Below, piece after piece: positions 20,321 to 27,360 of a stretch of 64,000 nucleotides of DNA. The translations under genes and the position numbers were made by a program. Numbering within the stretch: position 1 is the stretch's first letter; each line of letters opens with the position of its first letter. The DNA comes from Natranaeroarchaeum aerophilus (GTDB lineage: Archaea; Halobacteriota; Halobacteria; Halobacteriales; Natronoarchaeaceae), in the NCBI RefSeq assembly GCF_023638055.1, contig NZ_JAKRVY010000002.1:372001-436000 (forward strand), read 5' to 3'. Under the pieces are notes generated by a model. That model was not told the origin of the DNA, searched no databases, and saw nothing but the letters and a program-made list of their open reading frames with translations.

Positions 20321-20923
20321 TCAGTCGACGTATCGCTCGCCGACAGCGTCGACGACCGCGTCGAGCGTCCGGACGGCCCACAGATAGAACGCCGAGTCCG
20401 ATGTCTCCTCGACGCGCTCGCGGAACGCCGGAATCCAGTCGAAGTGCGCGCCGTGGAAACGGGCGTACTCCTGGTACTGTTCGGCATCCAGCAGGAGACT
20501 TGCGTACTCCAGCAACAGTGATATATGATCGGCCGGATACTCCGGCGGGACCTCGGCCTCGAGTGCCTCGTACCGACCCTTCATGTCGCTGGCGGGCGGT
20601 CCCGACAGGATTCCGCGCTCGGTCCCGTCCCACCACTGCTCGTAGGCGGACTCGGCGGGTGGGGCATACTCGCCCTCGAACGCCTCGAACGTACGGAGAT
20701 ACTCATGTCGGAGCGTGGCCAGGTCTTCGACCGGCGGAACGGCTTCGACGGTCGATAGCGCCGTCGGTCCCGTGCCGAACGTCGTTTCGAGCGTCCCGTC
20801 ACGAATCGCTGCGAGGAAGTCTTCGTCGGGATGCTGGAAACACGAGGCGAGCGCGGCGTACAGTTCGGCGTGTCGTGTACTCATACGGTGACTCCGGTCG
20901 GAGATAGCTTGAAGATTGGTCAT
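20321..20923 (-). CDS. TorD/DmsD-family molybdoenzyme maturation chaperone
   Basis: TorD-family chaperones bind the Tat signal of a molybdoenzyme and help cofactor insertion before export. The 200-residue all-alpha protein contains the family pattern LRHEYLRTFEAFEGEYAPPAESAYEQ and later PADHISLLLEYASLLL. Its ATG overlaps the stop of the NrfD gene (ATGA at 20920-20923), although a second ATG 39 nt further in (20884) would also give a complete domain. It is the last gene of the molybdoenzyme operon and most likely serves the catalytic subunit encoded at 22563-24890. Confidence 0.88.
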   Translation of the reverse strand: MTNLQAISDRSHRMSTRHAELYAALASCFQHPDEDFLAAIRDGTLETTFGTGPTALSTVEAVPPVEDLATLRHEYLRTFEAFEGEYAPPAESAYEQWWDGTERGILSGPPASDMKGRYEALEAEVPPEYPADHISLLLEYASLLLDAEQYQEYARFHGAHFDWIPAFRERVEETSDSAFYLWAVRTLDAVVDAVGERYVD

Positions 20924-21945
20924 CCGACGACCACCGGCTGGTGGATCGCCGCGTAGACGATCAGGAACCGCAGCATGAACGAACCGGCTATGACTAGCCC
21001 GAACTTCGCCGAACAGATCGGCTTCGTCATCAGCTTGTTCTCCTCCCGGAGGAACTCGACAGCCTGCTGGGCACCCGATATCAGGAGTGGGACCACGAGT
21101 CCGAGCCCGAGTACGCCAACCCAGAGCAAGGGACCGTACGGTCCGGTGAGTGAGGCGTACGTTTCGGTAGCTGCGACGCCGCCCGTTGCGAGCGTGTACA
21201 GCAGGATTCCCAGGATGACGATTTCGACGGTGATGACCGCGTCGTCGAACAGGCTAAACCGATGGACGAGATGGCTGTCGATGTTGCTGGCCAGCTGGGC
21301 GAGCATCACGACTGCCGCCGTCCCGGCCGAGACGCCACTGGCCAGGAACAACAGCGGGAGTAGCCGTGGATCCCACAGGGGGACGTTCCAGCCGACGTCG
21401 CTCAACAGTAGCCCGGTGTAGACGACCACAAGCACTGCCAGTCCGACGCCGACCAGTCGTACACCCATGTCGAGGATACCCGTGGGACGGGTCGCGTCGG
21501 CCAGCCGGTCCAGCAGCCCTTCGACGCCGAGTTTCGCAACCAGCTGTCGGGGGAGCCCACTCGGATCGGCAGTCGCTTTGGCCCCGAACGTAGCCCACAG
21601 TAACCGCACCGTGACGAGGAGGCTGAACAGCACGATCACCCAGGTCCCGATCGCCATCCAGGATGTCCAGTTCGTGAAGCTCACGGGGAAGGTAAATGCC
21701 CGGATGAACGGTCCGGAGAGGTGCAACAGCAACGTGATCGAGCCAACGGCGATCGTGACGAACGCCGTCAGCAGTCCCCACCGGGTGACGTGCTCGTAGC
21801 CGTCGTACTCGCTTCGACCGGCGACAGTCTCGGCGATCGATGCGACCACGTACGACCCTCCCGAGACGCCCCCGAGGAAGAGGTAGACGGCGACGAAGAT
21901 GTCCCAGTGGCCCGCCTCGAGCCAGAACAGTTCTGGAGCAGTCAT
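20920..21945 (-). CDS. NrfD/PsrC-type membrane anchor subunit
   Basis: This 341-residue protein has eight or nine hydrophobic segments and begins with HWDIFVAVYLFLGGVSGGSYVVASI, the NrfD-family first helix. Members exchange electrons with menaquinol for the attached Fe-S and molybdenum subunits. It lies 6 bp after the Fe-S subunit gene and overlaps the torD-like gene. Together the three structural genes make a Psr/Phs/Ttr-type complex. The direction of electron flow, reduction of sulfur compounds or oxidation, cannot be decided from sequence. Confidence 0.9.
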   Translation of the reverse strand: MTAPELFWLEAGHWDIFVAVYLFLGGVSGGSYVVASIAETVAGRSEYDGYEHVTRWGLLTAFVTIAVGSITLLLHLSGPFIRAFTFPVSFTNWTSWMAIGTWVIVLFSLLVTVRLLWATFGAKATADPSGLPRQLVAKLGVEGLLDRLADATRPTGILDMGVRLVGVGLAVLVVVYTGLLLSDVGWNVPLWDPRLLPLLFLASGVSAGTAAVVMLAQLASNIDSHLVHRFSLFDDAVITVEIVILGILLYTLATGGVAATETYASLTGPYGPLLWVGVLGLGLVVPLLISGAQQAVEFLREENKLMTKPICSAKFGLVIAGSFMLRFLIVYAAIHQPVVVG

Positions 21946-21951
21946 GATCGG

Positions 21952-22560
21952 TTACACCTCGTAGGTGACCGCACCGGCCTCGTCGTCTTCCCGATCCGCC
22001 TCGACGATCACATTCGCCGGTTGCGAGGCGAATCGTTCGAGGGCCTCTTTGGACGCCTCGGCTTTCAGCTCACTGACTGGCCCGGCTTTGATCGCGTCGC
22101 CGACGCAGTTGTCGACACAGGCTGGCGTCGAGCCGCCGTCTTCTTGCTCCTCCCGGGGAGGCATGTCGTGGCCGCCGCCTGGCCCCTCTCCGAGACACAT
22201 GTTGCACTTCGACATGGTGCCGCCGTCGTCGTAGGTCGGCGCGCCGTACGGACACGCCCACGCACAGTAGTGACAGCCGATACAGCTGTCCCGGTCGACG
22301 GTGACGATGCCGTCTTCCTCGCGCTTTTCGATCGAATTACACGGACAGACCTTCTCGCAGGGTGCGTCCGAGCAGTGCATACACGACATCGAGATCGGCA
22401 TCGAGCTCACGTCGGGGAACTCCCCGGACTCGACGTTGCGGACCGTCCGCCACTCGTCCTGGTCCGAATCGCGGTCGTGGCGCTGTTTGCACGACACCGA
22501 ACAGGCGTGACAGCCGATACACTTGTTGGCGTCGAAGTAGAACGCCCACTGTTCGCCCAT
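21952..22560 (-). CDS. Four-cluster ferredoxin subunit (PsrB/NrfC/DmsB type)
   Basis: The 202-residue subunit contains four cysteine clusters: CIGCHACSVSCKQ, CMHCSDAPCEKVCPC, CIGCHYCAWACPYG and CNMCLGEG with a later CVDNCVG. It wires electrons between the molybdenum subunit and the membrane anchor. It has no signal peptide of its own, so it probably travels with the Tat-exported catalytic subunit. It starts 2 bp after the catalytic gene ends. Confidence 0.93.
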   Translation of the reverse strand: MGEQWAFYFDANKCIGCHACSVSCKQRHDRDSDQDEWRTVRNVESGEFPDVSSMPISMSCMHCSDAPCEKVCPCNSIEKREEDGIVTVDRDSCIGCHYCAWACPYGAPTYDDGGTMSKCNMCLGEGPGGGHDMPPREEQEDGGSTPACVDNCVGDAIKAGPVSELKAEASKEALERFASQPANVIVEADREDDEAGAVTYEV

Positions 22561-22562
22561 CG

Positions 22563-24890
22563 TCAGTCACCTCCCGTGACGTCGACGGCAACGTGTCTGT
22601 CCGGCTGTCCCGTGATCGGATCCATCTGTTTGGCGTGCAGTTTCATCGTGTTCATCCCCTCGTAGTCTTCCTGTGCCGATCCCTCGCCGAAGCCGTACTC
22701 GGCGGTGACGAAGCCGGGTTTGATCGTCTCGGTGACATGGGCCATCAGTTCGCCCTCCCCGGTCTCGGATTCGATGGTGACCATATCTCCCGTCTCGATC
22801 CCTCGCGGCTCGGCGTCGGCCGGGTTGAGATGCAGGTAGTTGCCCCGGTAGTCCTCGTCTTCGAGTTCGTTCTTCCGCGCGAACTGATCGAGACAGCGGT
22901 CGATCCCCTGATCGCTGCCATGCGAGAAGAACACCGACCGGATGTCGTAGAACTCCAGTGGGTACTCCTCGTCGAGTTCGTCGCCGTAGGTTCCCGGTGG
23001 CTGCCATTCGGGCGCCGTATCCATCCCGGCCTCCTCGGCTGCCTGGACGAACGGCGGGACCTGATCGAGGTCGAAGCTAAACGCCGGGCCGTCCTCGTCG
23101 CGCCACTGCTCGTAGCCGTACTCGCCGACGAGTTCGTAGTTCTTCTCGCCGCTGTCGAGCTCGTCGAGCGTGAGATCGACCGCCTGTAGCTGGTCGTCGA
23201 TGAACTCCTCGTGGTCGTCCCACGGGAAGTACTCGCCCCAGCCCATCGCCTCGGCGATCCCGGTCAGGATCTCCCAGTCGGGTTTCGTGTTGAACTGTGG
23301 TTCGACGGCGGCTTTCCCGCCGACGACCCACTGGTGTTCGGGATACGCGCTCCAGGAACCGGTTCCCATCGTGTCCTTTTCGAGCTGCGTGGCGTCGGCG
23401 AAGACGACGTCGGCGTTGCGCGTGACGCCGTTCCAGTAGGCGTCGACGGCGATCACGAGGTCCATCTCGTCGAGCGCGTCGAGCCAGGCCTCGGCGTTGC
23501 CGTCTTTCAGCGGCATGTCGTGGTGACAGTAGATGCCGTTGATGTGGCCGTTCTCGACCATCTCGGGCACGAGATTGTGTGCGATCCCCTCGATGTGCCG
23601 GAACGGGTATTCTCCGTACTCCTCGTACTTGTGAAGCGCAGGCTCTTTGCCCGCTGCATTGTTCGGCAGGTCGACGCCGATGGTCACGTCGGTCCCCTTG
23701 TCATCGGGTGTCCACTCACAGACCTCGAACGGATCCGCGGTCGGCGTCCCCTTCCACAGTCTGAGCCCGCCAGGACGATCGATATTACCGACCAAACCGT
23801 TCAGGGCGGTGATGTTCTGACTTGCCTTCCATCCGTTACTCACCTGGGCTGTCCCGGTCCAGATCGAGATTCCAGCGGCCGGAGCAGCCTCGGCGAACCC
23901 GCGAGCTATCTCGCGGATCTTGTCGGCGTCGATCCCGGTGATTTCTTCGGCCCACTCGGGGGTCTTGTCCGCGACTGCCTCGCGGTAGGCCTCGAAGCCA
24001 TGGGTATGTTCCTGGACGAACTCCAGATCGAGGCGGCCCTCCTGGATGATGACGTGTGCCATCGCGAGCGCGAGTGCGCCGTCGGTTCGGGGTTCGATCG
24101 GCAGCCACTCGTCGGACTTTTCGGCCGTCTCGGTGTACTGCGGATCGATCGTTACCAGCGTGGCGTCGTTCTCTTCGATCGCTTTGAGAATTCCTTTTGC
24201 CTCGAACTGCCCGGCGAACGCTTCCAGTGGGTTCCGACCCCACATGATGAGATACTCGGCGTTCTGGTAGTCCGGGATCCGGTTGTTCGAGCCGACGCCC
24301 ATCATCCCGCCCGTAACGAAGGTCGGGCCAGCACAGACGTGGACGCCTCGACCGATCCGTTCCGGCGTGCCGTAGAGGTCGCGCCAGATCGTCCGGAAGA
24401 TCGGCGTCTCCGCCCAGCTCCCGGCATCGAGAAACGTCTCCGCGCCGTGTTCGTCGTCGAATTCGCGGAGCCGCTCGGCGGTGTACTCGAAGGCTTCGTC
24501 CCAGGTCGCTTCCCGTAGCTCGCCGTCCTCGCGGATGTACGGCTGTTTGATCCGGTCGGGATCGTGCGTCTTGTCGAGCTGTGCGAGCCCCTTCGGACAG
24601 AGCGTTCCGTTCGTGCCGGGGCCGGCGCTCCCCCGGGGGTTCCCGTCGACACCCGTGATTCCGACGACCGTGTCGTCGTTGACTTTCACTTCCTGGGCAC
24701 AGTTGTGACAGCACATCCAGCAGTTGCCGAAGGCGGTCTCGGCGTTGGCGACCGGGGTCGCGGAGCGGTCCGTGGTTCCGAGCCCTGGCACGTCGTCGAG
24801 ACAGCCACCGAGCGCGGCGGCTCCCGCAGCGGCGGCGCCGGTCTTTAGCAGGTTGCGGCGGGTCAGCCCGTTCCCATCCTCGCTACTCAT
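22563..24890 (-). CDS. Molybdopterin oxidoreductase catalytic subunit, Psr/Phs-like
   Basis: The 775-residue enzyme has a Tat signal (TRRNLLKTG) with lipobox LGGC (Cys 30), so it is exported and probably lipid-anchored. A [4Fe-4S] site (Cys 57, 60, 64 and 98) is followed by the molybdopterin domains and a C-terminal dinucleotide-binding barrel ending in GQPDRHVAVDV. A cysteine in GRGVHVCAGPTF (about residue 186) sits where polysulfide/thiosulfate reductases and nitrate reductases of the Nap type coordinate molybdenum, unlike the serine of DMSO reductases. Gene context (rhodanese lipoprotein, PsrB/PsrC-like subunits) favours polysulfide, thiosulfate or tetrathionate. Arsenate or another oxyanion cannot be excluded. 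Confidence 0.92.
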   Translation of the reverse strand: MSSEDGNGLTRRNLLKTGAAAAGAAALGGCLDDVPGLGTTDRSATPVANAETAFGNCWMCCHNCAQEVKVNDDTVVGITGVDGNPRGSAGPGTNGTLCPKGLAQLDKTHDPDRIKQPYIREDGELREATWDEAFEYTAERLREFDDEHGAETFLDAGSWAETPIFRTIWRDLYGTPERIGRGVHVCAGPTFVTGGMMGVGSNNRIPDYQNAEYLIMWGRNPLEAFAGQFEAKGILKAIEENDATLVTIDPQYTETAEKSDEWLPIEPRTDGALALAMAHVIIQEGRLDLEFVQEHTHGFEAYREAVADKTPEWAEEITGIDADKIREIARGFAEAAPAAGISIWTGTAQVSNGWKASQNITALNGLVGNIDRPGGLRLWKGTPTADPFEVCEWTPDDKGTDVTIGVDLPNNAAGKEPALHKYEEYGEYPFRHIEGIAHNLVPEMVENGHINGIYCHHDMPLKDGNAEAWLDALDEMDLVIAVDAYWNGVTRNADVVFADATQLEKDTMGTGSWSAYPEHQWVVGGKAAVEPQFNTKPDWEILTGIAEAMGWGEYFPWDDHEEFIDDQLQAVDLTLDELDSGEKNYELVGEYGYEQWRDEDGPAFSFDLDQVPPFVQAAEEAGMDTAPEWQPPGTYGDELDEEYPLEFYDIRSVFFSHGSDQGIDRCLDQFARKNELEDEDYRGNYLHLNPADAEPRGIETGDMVTIESETGEGELMAHVTETIKPGFVTAEYGFGEGSAQEDYEGMNTMKLHAKQMDPITGQPDRHVAVDVTGGD

Positions 24891-25110
24891 CCGCGATCAC
24901 CTCGGCGGGGGTGTAATCGTCGCCGAACTCCTCGCGAAGCCGTTCGTCGTACTTCTCGTGGAACTCGCGTTCGGATAGCTCGCCGTTCGCGACGCGCATC
25001 GCGTCGATACCGACCTGTTTCCCGAGTTCCTGATCGTACTCGCTTTCGTCCGGATCCGTCTCGATGGCGGCCAGTGCCTCGAGCGGATCCTGGTTGTTTC
25101 CTGGGCTCAT
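24883..25110 (-). CDS. Small operon-leading protein, ferredoxin-N-terminal-like domain
   Basis: The 75-residue acidic protein (MSPGNNQDPLEALAAIE, then LGKQVGIDAMRVANGELSEREFHEKYDERLREEFG) lacks cysteines from this start. It resembles the short helical domain that precedes the Fe-S protein in some haloarchaeal molybdoenzymes. It overlaps the catalytic gene by 8 bp and is the first gene after the promoter. The start at 25110 is fixed by the TATA box at 25175-25181, which lies inside any longer reading. It may be a complex subunit or assembly helper. Confidence 0.75.
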   Translation of the reverse strand: MSPGNNQDPLEALAAIETDPDESEYDQELGKQVGIDAMRVANGELSEREFHEKYDERLREEFGDDYTPAEVIADE

Positions 25111-25158
25111 GGAGTGCTCACAGTAGAAACAACGGTTCTGGACCGCATAGGTCGCACT

Positions 25159-25181
25159 CGGGATCAATTCAGGCTTTATAT
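25159..25181 (-). promoter_or_regulatory. Promoter with shared sulfur-operon motif, copy 1
   Basis: A TATA box (plus strand TTTATAT, 25175-25181) is followed, in the direction of transcription, by the complement of CGGGATCAATTC (25159-25170). The same 12 bp and the same spacing to TATA recur at 26619-26641, 20 of 23 positions identical. The motif falls between TATA and the expected start site, a position typical for repression. Confidence 0.7.
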
Positions 25182-25270
25182 GCGGGGTGGTGTGCGTGTC
25201 GACAGACGATCAGTTCCAGCGATCAAAAAGCGTGCCGTACCCGAACGACGACAGTCGGTCAGTCGGGAAC

Positions 25271-26581
25271 TCAGAACGCGGGCGGGGCGATCGAATCGCA
25301 GCCCCAGTCGCCGCCACCGTCGCCGCCGTCTCCGTCGTCGCTCTCCGTATCTTCGCCGGCCATGTAGGCCGCATCGGTGACCTCGATCTGGTTCGCGTCG
25401 GCGGACGCGAGGTCAGGGATCTCGTCGACGACGATTTCCAGATCGCTGTCGCCGGTGTCTCCGTCCGTGCGATCGTTCAGGTCGACGCGCCAGTCCTCCG
25501 GCGGGACGTTCCCTTCGGTGTTGTTCCCGTCGTAGTCGGCCCACTGTCTGGAGAAGGAGCCGTCGTAGACGGTGACGTCGTCGTAGCCCAGTATCCCGTC
25601 GAGGACGAAGTAGCCCATGGTCGCGCGGTAGCCGCTCCCGCAGAACGTGACGATCGTATCGCCGTTTTCGACATCGTCCAGGCCGAAGATGTGCGATTCG
25701 ATCGCATCGGCATCCTTCCAGTGGCCGCCTTCTGCGAACTTCGTCGAGTAGCTGTCGCCCTTGTGGTAGTTCGCCGGATCATCGATGATCGCGGTCGAGA
25801 TCGTCGCGTCCGGATCGGGTCGGTTATCAAGGAAGACGTCGTCGCGCTCGCCCGCCTGTTTGAGGTCGACGCGCTGGATCATCTGTGCGATGCCGAGGCG
25901 GTCGTCGTTGTTCAACTCGCCGTTGGCCTGCACGCTGAACGTGGCGGCTGGCGCGTCGGGTTCGCCACCGGTTTCAAGCTCGTACTCCTCGCCGTAGGCG
26001 TTGTATCCGCCGTTGAGAACTTTGATACGCTCGCGTGGGAATCCCCAGTACCGGAGCGTCCAGTAGGCTCGTGCCGTCCGGAGCGCGCTCGGCCCGGAGA
26101 GGACGATCGTGGTGCGCGGACAGACACCACTACGCTGGAGCACCTCGTCCATCTGTGCGCCGTCTGCCACCATCGGTGCAGCCTCACCCAGCCCCTCGGT
26201 GCGCGCGGCGTGGAACTCGTCCGGCGCCCACTTGAGCGCGCCGGGCACATGACCGTCCTCGTACGTTTCGGTGTCCCAGACCCGGAGTACGGTGACACGG
26301 TCACGAACGTCCAGCTGACCGAGGTTCACCAGCCCGGCGTCCTGCCACTCTTTCAGCGTCGCCGGTTCGATCAGCGCGTTCTCGGTCGCTTTCGGATCCG
26401 GAACCTCCTGTTCGGTCTCCTCGTCTTCCCCGTTCTCCGATTCCTCGCCGTTTTCGCCCCCGTTCTCGTCGCCGTTTTCGGCTGCCGGCTCGTCGTCGTC
26501 ACCGAGACAGCCAGCGAGCGCGCCGAGCCCGGCCGCGCCAGTTATCTGCACGAATCGTCGCCGATCGAGTTCTCGATCCAT
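25271..26581 (-). CDS. Tat-exported rhodanese-family sulfurtransferase lipoprotein
   Basis: The 436-residue protein has a Tat signal (DRRRFVQIT), lipobox LAGC and a Glu/Asn-rich linker, then two rhodanese domains. The first (about 85-215) has SGPSALRTARAYW where the active Cys would be, so it looks structural. The second carries TFCGSGYRATMGYF, with the catalytic Cys near residue 325. It would transfer sulfane sulfur from thiosulfate or polysulfide outside the membrane, feeding or draining the molybdoenzyme encoded just downstream. A glycine/aspartate-rich tail ends the protein. The ATG at 26579-26581 follows the promoter at 26619. Confidence 0.9.
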   Translation of the reverse strand: MDRELDRRRFVQITGAAGLGALAGCLGDDDEPAAENGDENGGENGEESENGEDEETEQEVPDPKATENALIEPATLKEWQDAGLVNLGQLDVRDRVTVLRVWDTETYEDGHVPGALKWAPDEFHAARTEGLGEAAPMVADGAQMDEVLQRSGVCPRTTIVLSGPSALRTARAYWTLRYWGFPRERIKVLNGGYNAYGEEYELETGGEPDAPAATFSVQANGELNNDDRLGIAQMIQRVDLKQAGERDDVFLDNRPDPDATISTAIIDDPANYHKGDSYSTKFAEGGHWKDADAIESHIFGLDDVENGDTIVTFCGSGYRATMGYFVLDGILGYDDVTVYDGSFSRQWADYDGNNTEGNVPPEDWRVDLNDRTDGDTGDSDLEIVVDEIPDLASADANQIEVTDAAYMAGEDTESDDGDGGDGGGDWGCDSIAPPAF

Positions 26582-26618
26582 ACTCGTCACTACGCAAGAG
26601 GGTGCGTTGAGAATATCC

Positions 26619-26641
26619 CGGGATCAATTCGGCTTTTATAT
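26619..26641 (-). promoter_or_regulatory. Promoter with shared sulfur-operon motif, copy 2
   Basis: The plus strand has CGGGATCAATTC (26619-26630) followed by the TATA element TTTATAT (26635-26641), matching copy 1 at 25159-25181 at 20 of 23 positions. Initiation about 26 nt beyond TATA would leave a 28-nt leader for the rhodanese gene. Confidence 0.7.
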
Positions 26642-26679: not shown

Positions 26680-27330
26680 TCACGTCTCCCAGCAGGAACA
26701 GTCACAGGAAAGCTGTCGGACGACGTTCGACTCCGCCCGTCGAAGGCGCTGGGATGTCGCTGACAGGGAGATCCCCAGTTCGTCGGCGATCTTCTCCATC
26801 GGAACGGATGCGTCGGGATCGTAGTACCCGAGCTCCTGGGCGACGTTTACCGCCTCACGCTGCTTGGTAGTCAGTTCCGAAACGTCGACCGAACAGAGCT
26901 CACGGAACTCCGATCCATCGGTCGAGACGATGCTCTGCACGGAGACGCGGGCACAGATCTCTCGCACCTCCGCAACGATATCGGCGACCGTCTCGGTGTC
27001 AGAGACGTACGTTTCCATGACGAACTCCCCGTCCCCGACCTCCAGATATCGCGGCAGACAGCCGTACTCCGCGAACACCTTCCCCGGGCAGTGATCACAG
27101 ATCTCGTTCGATGTGTGTTTCGTGCAGACGCTCTCCTCGTCGTCGCGGACGGCGATGTCGAGGTTGCAGTGTTCCTGATCGAGCCGAACGTCGAGGTCGA
27201 TGATGTCCCCGTCGATCGCGTCCATCACGCAGGGCCCGCCGCGTTCTATCTCGAGTACGACCCGCAGGTCACGGTCCTCAACGGGCGGTATTGCAGCTTG
27301 TTCGTCGTCGGTTCGGGACCCAACAGCCAT
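26680..27330 (-). CDS. Cysteine-rich HTH-10 (Bat-type) regulator
   Basis: The C-terminal 60 residues hold the HTH-10 domain (LTTKQREAVNVAQELGYYDPD followed by EKIADELGISLSATSQRLRRAE). The N-terminal region (1-145) has a cysteine cluster: C in EHCNLDI, C in SVCTKHTS, CDHC, and C in EYGCLP, and the protein ends CDCSCWET. This resembles DmsR-type regulators next to haloarchaeal molybdoenzyme operons and could sense redox state, metal or sulfur species through the cysteines. It is 38 bp beyond the rhodanese promoter and transcribed in the same direction. It is the best candidate to bind the shared motif. Confidence 0.87.
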   Translation of the reverse strand: MAVGSRTDDEQAAIPPVEDRDLRVVLEIERGGPCVMDAIDGDIIDLDVRLDQEHCNLDIAVRDDEESVCTKHTSNEICDHCPGKVFAEYGCLPRYLEVGDGEFVMETYVSDTETVADIVAEVREICARVSVQSIVSTDGSEFRELCSVDVSELTTKQREAVNVAQELGYYDPDASVPMEKIADELGISLSATSQRLRRAESNVVRQLSCDCSCWET

Positions 27331-27333
27331 ATT

Positions 27334-27360
27334 GCCCTCTAGAGGGCCACCTCGTATAAA
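27334..27360 (-). promoter_or_regulatory. Promoter of the HTH-10 gene with perfect palindrome
   Basis: A perfect 14-bp palindrome GCCCTCTAGAGGGC (27334-27347) lies between a TATA-like TTTATAC (27354-27360 on the minus strand) and the ATG at 27330. It ends 3 bp before the start codon of a probably leaderless mRNA. This is the layout of an autoregulatory operator. Confidence 0.6.

Follow-up and report, generated by a model that had tools for sequence, protein, structure and literature searches.

Gene organization and the repeated promoter block

The window, i.e. the whole 64,000-nucleotide stretch of Natranaeroarchaeum aerophilus DNA that was analyzed, contains a cluster of genes on the minus strand, which are transcribed in the order regulator, rhodanese, Ferredoxin_N ORF and molybdoenzyme operon (24890-20321). 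The genes and the features of their promoters are the following:

26680-27330, minus strand: regulator of the Bat/DmsR/NarO kind with DmsR_N and HTH_10 domains (Pfam), 216 aa, candidate binder of the element
26635-26640, minus strand: TATA box (TATAAA) of the rhodanese promoter (sequence, orthologue comparison)
26616-26634, minus strand: TATA-locked element of the rhodanese promoter, AGCCGAATTGATCCCGGGA (sequence and orthologue comparison)
26608, minus strand: conserved A (position 33) of the rhodanese promoter, candidate initiator (site alignment)
25271-26584, minus strand: rhodanese, ExtH-like, probably exported (NF040901 above cut-off)
25175-25180, minus strand: TATA box (TATAAA) of the psr promoter (sequence, orthologue comparison, site alignment)
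25156-25174, minus strand: TATA-locked element of the psr promoter, GCCTGAATTGATCCCGAGT, positions 7-25 counted from the T of TATAAA, conserved in orthologues
25148, minus strand: conserved A (position 33) of the psr promoter, candidate initiator (1.40 bits in the site alignment)
24883-25110, minus strand: 75-aa Ferredoxin_N (PF16947) ORF, first of the psr transcript (Pfam, orthologous loci)
22563-24890, minus strand: psrA-like molybdopterin oxidoreductase of the Psr/Phs type with a TAT-like signal (profile matches)
21952-22560, minus strand: psrB-like 4Fe-4S subunit (profile matches)
20920-21945, minus strand: psrC-like NrfD membrane subunit (profile matches)
20321-20923, minus strand: psrD-like TorD/NarJ-type chaperone (profile matches)

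The complete gene set of the haloarchaeal Psr cassette (PMC6176080), namely psrA, psrB, psrC/NrfD, the chaperone, the sulfurtransferase and a regulator of the bacterioopsin-activator type, is thus present. The molybdoenzyme fits best into the Psr/Phs family and may have polysulfide or thiosulfate reductase activity; its best NCBIfam model is PhsA, far under the cut-off (289 versus 694 bits), and the TAT_signal match lies slightly below its own (20.7 versus 22.7 bits). The rhodanese scores 235.5 bits against the ExtH model NF040901, for which the curated cut-off is 200; as this model describes ExtH of selenite/tellurite reduction operons, a role of the rhodanese in the reduction of tellurite or selenite is conceivable. 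Behind the psr site the Ferredoxin_N ORF comes first and psrA only after it. In the psr leaders of eight other loci (L034, L036-L042) it is replaced by apparently unrelated short ORFs of about 35-50 codons, which reach or overlap the psrA start. The genome of the window also encodes a second psr-like operon (G000:C2:41590-43848, L158) with a psrA 48-51% identical to the other and an HTH_10 gene of its own, and the element is absent upstream of it.

An earlier note on this DNA had described a block that recurs 1.46 kb apart with 20 of 23 positions identical and the same spacing to TATA, and both its coordinates and the degree of identity were confirmed. Of the 12-mer CGGGATCAATTC, a count over the whole 3.29-Mb genome found exactly two copies, at 25159-25170 and 26619-26630 as read on the plus strand, 1460 bp apart. 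Each copy lies close downstream of a TATA box, one ahead of psrA and the other ahead of the ExtH-like rhodanese gene, and the surrounding 23-base blocks, CGGGATCAATTCAGGCTTTATAT and CGGGATCAATTCGGCTTTTATAT, match at 20/23 positions with identical TATA spacing. Since the genes lie on the minus strand, the functional reading of the psr operon block is TATAAAGCCTGAATTGATCCCGAG (25180 to 25157) and that of the rhodanese block TATAAAAGCCGAATTGATCCCGGG (26640 to 26617, likewise on the minus strand). The placement of the motif between TATA and the start site, as the note had it, is borne out relative to the presumed start. The genome search for the motif with its TATA that it had proposed returned, at up to three mismatches, the two known sites and one poor match. 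The identity between the psr and rhodanese promoters is limited to -12 to +25 around the TATA start (27/37); beyond this stretch the agreement drops to nearly random levels (9/38 and 9/50 upstream, 16/50 downstream).

Conservation of a TATA-locked composite element

Rhodanese orthologues were found in 14 of the 391 genomes of the class, and comparison of the surrounding loci showed that the gene order regulator-rhodanese-psrA-psrB-psrC-psrD is largely kept. All 27 orthologous psr and rhodanese promoters first compared, which come from these 14 genomes and five haloarchaeal families, carry a composite with the consensus TATAAARCCTnAAnnnnTCC(C/A)GAG (scored as TATAAARCCTnAAnnnnTCCCGAGT), matching it at 15-20 of the 20 scored positions. 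Conservation at orthologous operons, the absence of which the earlier note had named as grounds for refutation, is thus seen in 27/27 promoters, and its reading of the motif as a regulatory element common to two genes of the same sulfur pathway is supported. The 12 bp that it delimited have to be extended to an element of about 19 bp (positions 7-25) in a fixed TATA register. At this size, the element is part of a composite promoter of haloarchaeal Psr cassettes, which consists of a near-invariant TATAAA followed in fixed register by approximately 19 bp of the form RCCTnAAnnnnTCCmGAG.

The composite is readily distinguished from the other TATA boxes of the same loci: the 266 kb contain 39 TATAAA sites, of which 25 belong to psr or rhodanese promoters and match at 10-14 of the 14 non-TATA positions, against at most five in the other 14. 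When TATA and the motif were located independently, the spacing was identical in 23 of the 27 promoters, and in the other four the independent picker took a different TATA or motif. In the site alignment, information spans TATA to position 25, with about 22 bits over positions 7-25, plus the A at position 33; the sequence upstream of TATA holds no conserved information there, and the BRE region is C-rich. A palindromic organization of the site was considered and rejected, given that C9-G22 pairs in 35/36 and A13-T18 in 30/36 sites but the dyad as a whole has a p of 0.24. In one genome (G319), where the rhodanese gene is divergent from psrA, this gene has its own promoter site with two mismatches, so that one site per gene is kept. 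This rhodanese (L033:9476-11722) is an 812-aa open frame of double length with two ExtH-like halves.

A scan of the 391 genomes with the degenerate pattern TWTAAARSCYNAANNNNTHCMGRG at up to one mismatch, with the reversed pattern as control, yielded matches in 28 genomes versus 6 for the control. Every one of the 25 perfect matches lies ahead of a psrA-type operon or a rhodanese, including psr operons without a rhodanese gene (G269, G359, G052, G255 and G226). In a wider search of genome contigs, the haloarchaeal matches to the exact pattern numbered three (Natronosalvus hydrolyticus, Halobacteriaceae archaeon SHR40 and a Halodesulfurarchaeum MAG), and each fell in a promoter of psr or of the rhodanese; eight further matches, approximately as many as expected by chance, came from unrelated organisms; a search for related loci with the rhodanese as query gave no match. 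At two mismatches neither the own genome nor its relatives showed an excess over the reversed-pattern control that would indicate a larger regulon, with the exception of a plausible hydrogenase site in G284. This one-mismatch element, TATAAAACCAAAAGGAATCCAGAG (L095:8056), precedes an operon resembling that of an uptake [NiFe]-hydrogenase about 20 kb from the psr cluster, and the regulon of this lineage may hence include hydrogen oxidation. A further arrangement was noted in G119 (L093:8019), where TATAAAAGC followed by the perfect palindrome CTGAATTATTCAG lies ahead of a Ferredoxin_N ORF and of a Mo operon that is only distantly related (29.5% to psrA). A different DmsR_N/HTH_10 gene accompanies this operon, and the arrangement may be a related regulator-element pair.

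The regulator and its co-inheritance with the element

The regulator contains an HTH_10 domain (8.2e-16, 58.0 bits versus a gathering score of 23.1) and a DmsR_N match (7.3e-8, 33.1 versus 27 bits) that covers only the C-terminal half of the Pfam model. It further displays two cysteine clusters, CDHCPG..C.PRY and a C-terminal CDCSCW, and C34, C55, C78, C81, C91 and C211 (numbering of the protein encoded in the window) are invariant in a four-sequence alignment. Pfam additionally reports Sigma70_r4 under its gathering score (1.3e-4). The structure model is of middling quality (pLDDT 70, pTM 0.48) and has no credible whole-chain structural match; the HTH part alone resembles sigma region 4 (Foldseek probability 1.00 but E 0.09). 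The regulator gene has a perfect palindrome, GCCCTCTAGAGGGC (window 27334-27347), between its ATG and the TATA (TTTATA) ahead of it; this palindrome is the sole exact copy in the genome, is also present in G006 (L030), and is possibly a separate operator of the gene.

With regulator orthologues called at E <= 1e-34, the element is present in all 22 genomes that have one versus 6 of the 369 that do not (Fisher 7e-31, uncorrected for shared ancestry), a p-value that overstates the evidence because the alignment rows are related and the cluster may travel as a unit, and a count raised by linkage and, possibly, by whole-cassette transfer. The six exceptions are all one-mismatch matches, and five have no psr-like gene nearby. 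As most of the co-occurrence reflects linkage, it is four contrasts that carry weight. G319 and G359 encode an unlinked regulator (61% identity), about 1.3 and 2.0 Mb away, yet both regulator and element persist; a further site with three mismatches in the same register follows the regulator at its new locus, and the G319 copy of this site lies ahead of a small second HTH_10 gene. G152 and G202 have the psrA closest to that of the window outside the genus (83-84% identical) with a regulator only 40-42% identical, and their psr promoters carry an altered element, TATAAAACCTTCAnCCGTTGAGAG. In these genomes, the own one among them, psrA paralogues with about 50% identity lack the element. Finally, rhodanese and psr sites resemble each other most in their central bases when both are from one family (best of 120 family pairings), and across families two rhodanese sites are no more alike than a rhodanese and a psr site, a pattern predicted by co-evolution with one trans-acting factor and not by an old duplication. 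One group (g45, comprising G098 and G346) has a perfect element, yet its best regulator match reaches only about 36%. Taken together, the most likely interpretation of these sequence patterns is that the element represents the recognition site of the adjacent DmsR-type HTH_10 protein, the candidate that the earlier note had put forward for a binding test and that co-inheritance strongly supports.

Proposed mode of action and relationship to known systems

The mode of action that we tentatively prefer, with a probability approaching one half, is that the HTH_10 regulator binds the element and holds the psr and rhodanese promoters shut until a signal of reduced or zero-valent sulfur, or of anoxia, arrives. 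The approximately 19-bp element fills the spacer between TATA and the presumed transcription start, and the protein encoded at 26680-27330 would, by binding it, co-regulate the psr operon and the rhodanese gene. Taking the inferred start site, the element overlaps the region where RNA polymerase is loaded and DNA is melted; a bound regulator would therefore cover DNA that TFB and RNA polymerase need for contact and melting, which favors this reading, as does the behavior of TrmB regulators, which repress when bound downstream of TATA and activate when bound upstream (PMC10817205). The conserved cysteines may then meet polysulfide, sulfane sulfur or anoxia, upon which the regulator would release both promoters. 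These cysteines, together with the fact that Psr and its rhodanese are sulfur-induced in relatives (PMC6176080, PMC5437934), point to sulfane sulfur or redox as the likely signal. Several observations speak against repression: the dyad of the site is not significant (p 0.24), which is unusual for a dimeric repressor; the characterized Bat-family proteins Bat, DmsR and NarO are mainly activators (PMC1447603, PMC11218638); and the psr and rhodanese promoters are without the haloarchaeal BRE (CGAAA) and the -10 WW (consensus from PMC4983044), which fits an activator-dependent promoter better. On balance, repression appears to be slightly ahead of activation.

Activation by the same regulator at the same site, inside the core promoter and in a fixed contact with TBP/TFB that replaces the missing BRE contact, is a serious though less likely alternative. 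It is consistent with DmsR being a positive regulator (PMC1447603), and is countered by the TrmB precedent (PMC10817205), the coverage of DNA that has to be melted, and the related CGAA-N4-TTCG sites of nirK promoters, which lie about 22-36 nt upstream of TATA where a TATA is recognizable. The spacing and orientation of the element relative to TATA, invariant across families, the lack of any BRE-like or upstream activator signal, the TCC where haloarchaea have WW near -10, and the similarity of the HTH part to sigma region 4 (sub-threshold Pfam; Foldseek E 0.09) all argue for it. Activators of the MerR type bind within the promoter spacer and follow a comparable logic. More speculatively, and with lower probability still, the sigma-4-like HTH_10 protein could be a dedicated initiation co-factor that sits in fixed register directly behind TATA, compensates for the missing BRE and turns on sulfur-respiration promoters only. 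The regulator-element pairs of psr, G152/G202 and perhaps G119 would then be a small family whose members diverged together, and archaea would have their own equivalent of activators that bind in the promoter spacer.

If the element were instead an extended core promoter recognized by a special TBP/TFB pair, with the HTH_10 protein uninvolved, this would account for the continuity with TATA, the fixed register and the initiator-like A at position 33, and haloarchaea do have several TBPs and TFBs (PMC1447603). This reading is nevertheless improbable, as a general factor should serve many genes and the own genome has two sites, two-mismatch matches elsewhere are at control level, and the presence of the element tracks one regulator even when unlinked. 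The earlier note had offered an old promoter duplication as its alternative, and the two near-identical blocks on one strand 1.46 kb apart speak for it. As a full explanation it finds no support: the flanks are unrelated, the element is conserved in five families, sites of the same lineage resemble each other, and between families the rhodanese sites are no closer to one another than to psr sites. A remnant devoid of present function is hence very improbable. Chance resemblance, with 20/23 matches arising randomly at about 1.5e-7 per pair of positions, can practically be dismissed in view of the orthologous conservation and the restriction to psr and rhodanese promoters.

The Psr operon or cassette is already known, and the cis-element is the addition made here; a search of the openly accessible literature found no published account of it. 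It appears operator-like and probably belongs to a known regulator family, but differs in sequence and in its unexpected, TATA-locked place downstream. Haloarchaeal genomes each encode 23-54 first-look candidates for Bat/DmsR/NarO-type proteins, and few DNA sites are known for them. Co-inheritance now ties one subfamily to a precise spacer element with a regulon of one or two promoters, a combination of precision and small size that makes the mode of action directly testable, and the element could serve as a marker for the control of sulfur respiration in uncultured haloarchaea.

Among the known systems, the haloarchaeal Psr cassette likewise has psrABCD, a rhodanese-like sulfurtransferase and bacterioopsin-activator-family genes clustered, and is sulfur-induced (PMC6176080, PMC5437934); a text search of these two papers for 'promoter' found no promoter work. 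In the TrmB family, too, repression or activation depends on where the regulator binds with respect to TATA, but this is another protein family with a palindromic motif and a sugar signal (PMC10817205). Bat of Halobacterium is also an activator of the HTH_10 type, but has PAS and GAF domains and a UAS 5' to bop (PMC1447603); the bop promoter is reported to be without a TFB recognition element, comparable to the missing BRE here. At the dms operon of Halobacterium, a DmsR_N plus HTH_10 regulator again lies beside a molybdoenzyme operon for anaerobic respiration, the difference being that activation of DMSO reductase by DmsR has been shown (PMC1447603). NarO, like the present regulator, belongs to the Bat-type HTH proteins that lack PAS/GAF domains, and its denitrification operator (CGAAYATDKTYG) similarly serves anaerobic-respiration operons and has the AA-N4-T core spacing (PMC10062603, PMC11218638). 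Identity with the NarO motif is ruled out by sequence (CTnAA-N4-TCCmG versus CGAA-N4-TTCG) and by position: the NarO operator is semi-palindromic, reported for many promoters and upstream of TATA where one is visible, whereas the present element is asymmetric, lies downstream of TATA in all sites and occurs at one or two promoters per genome.
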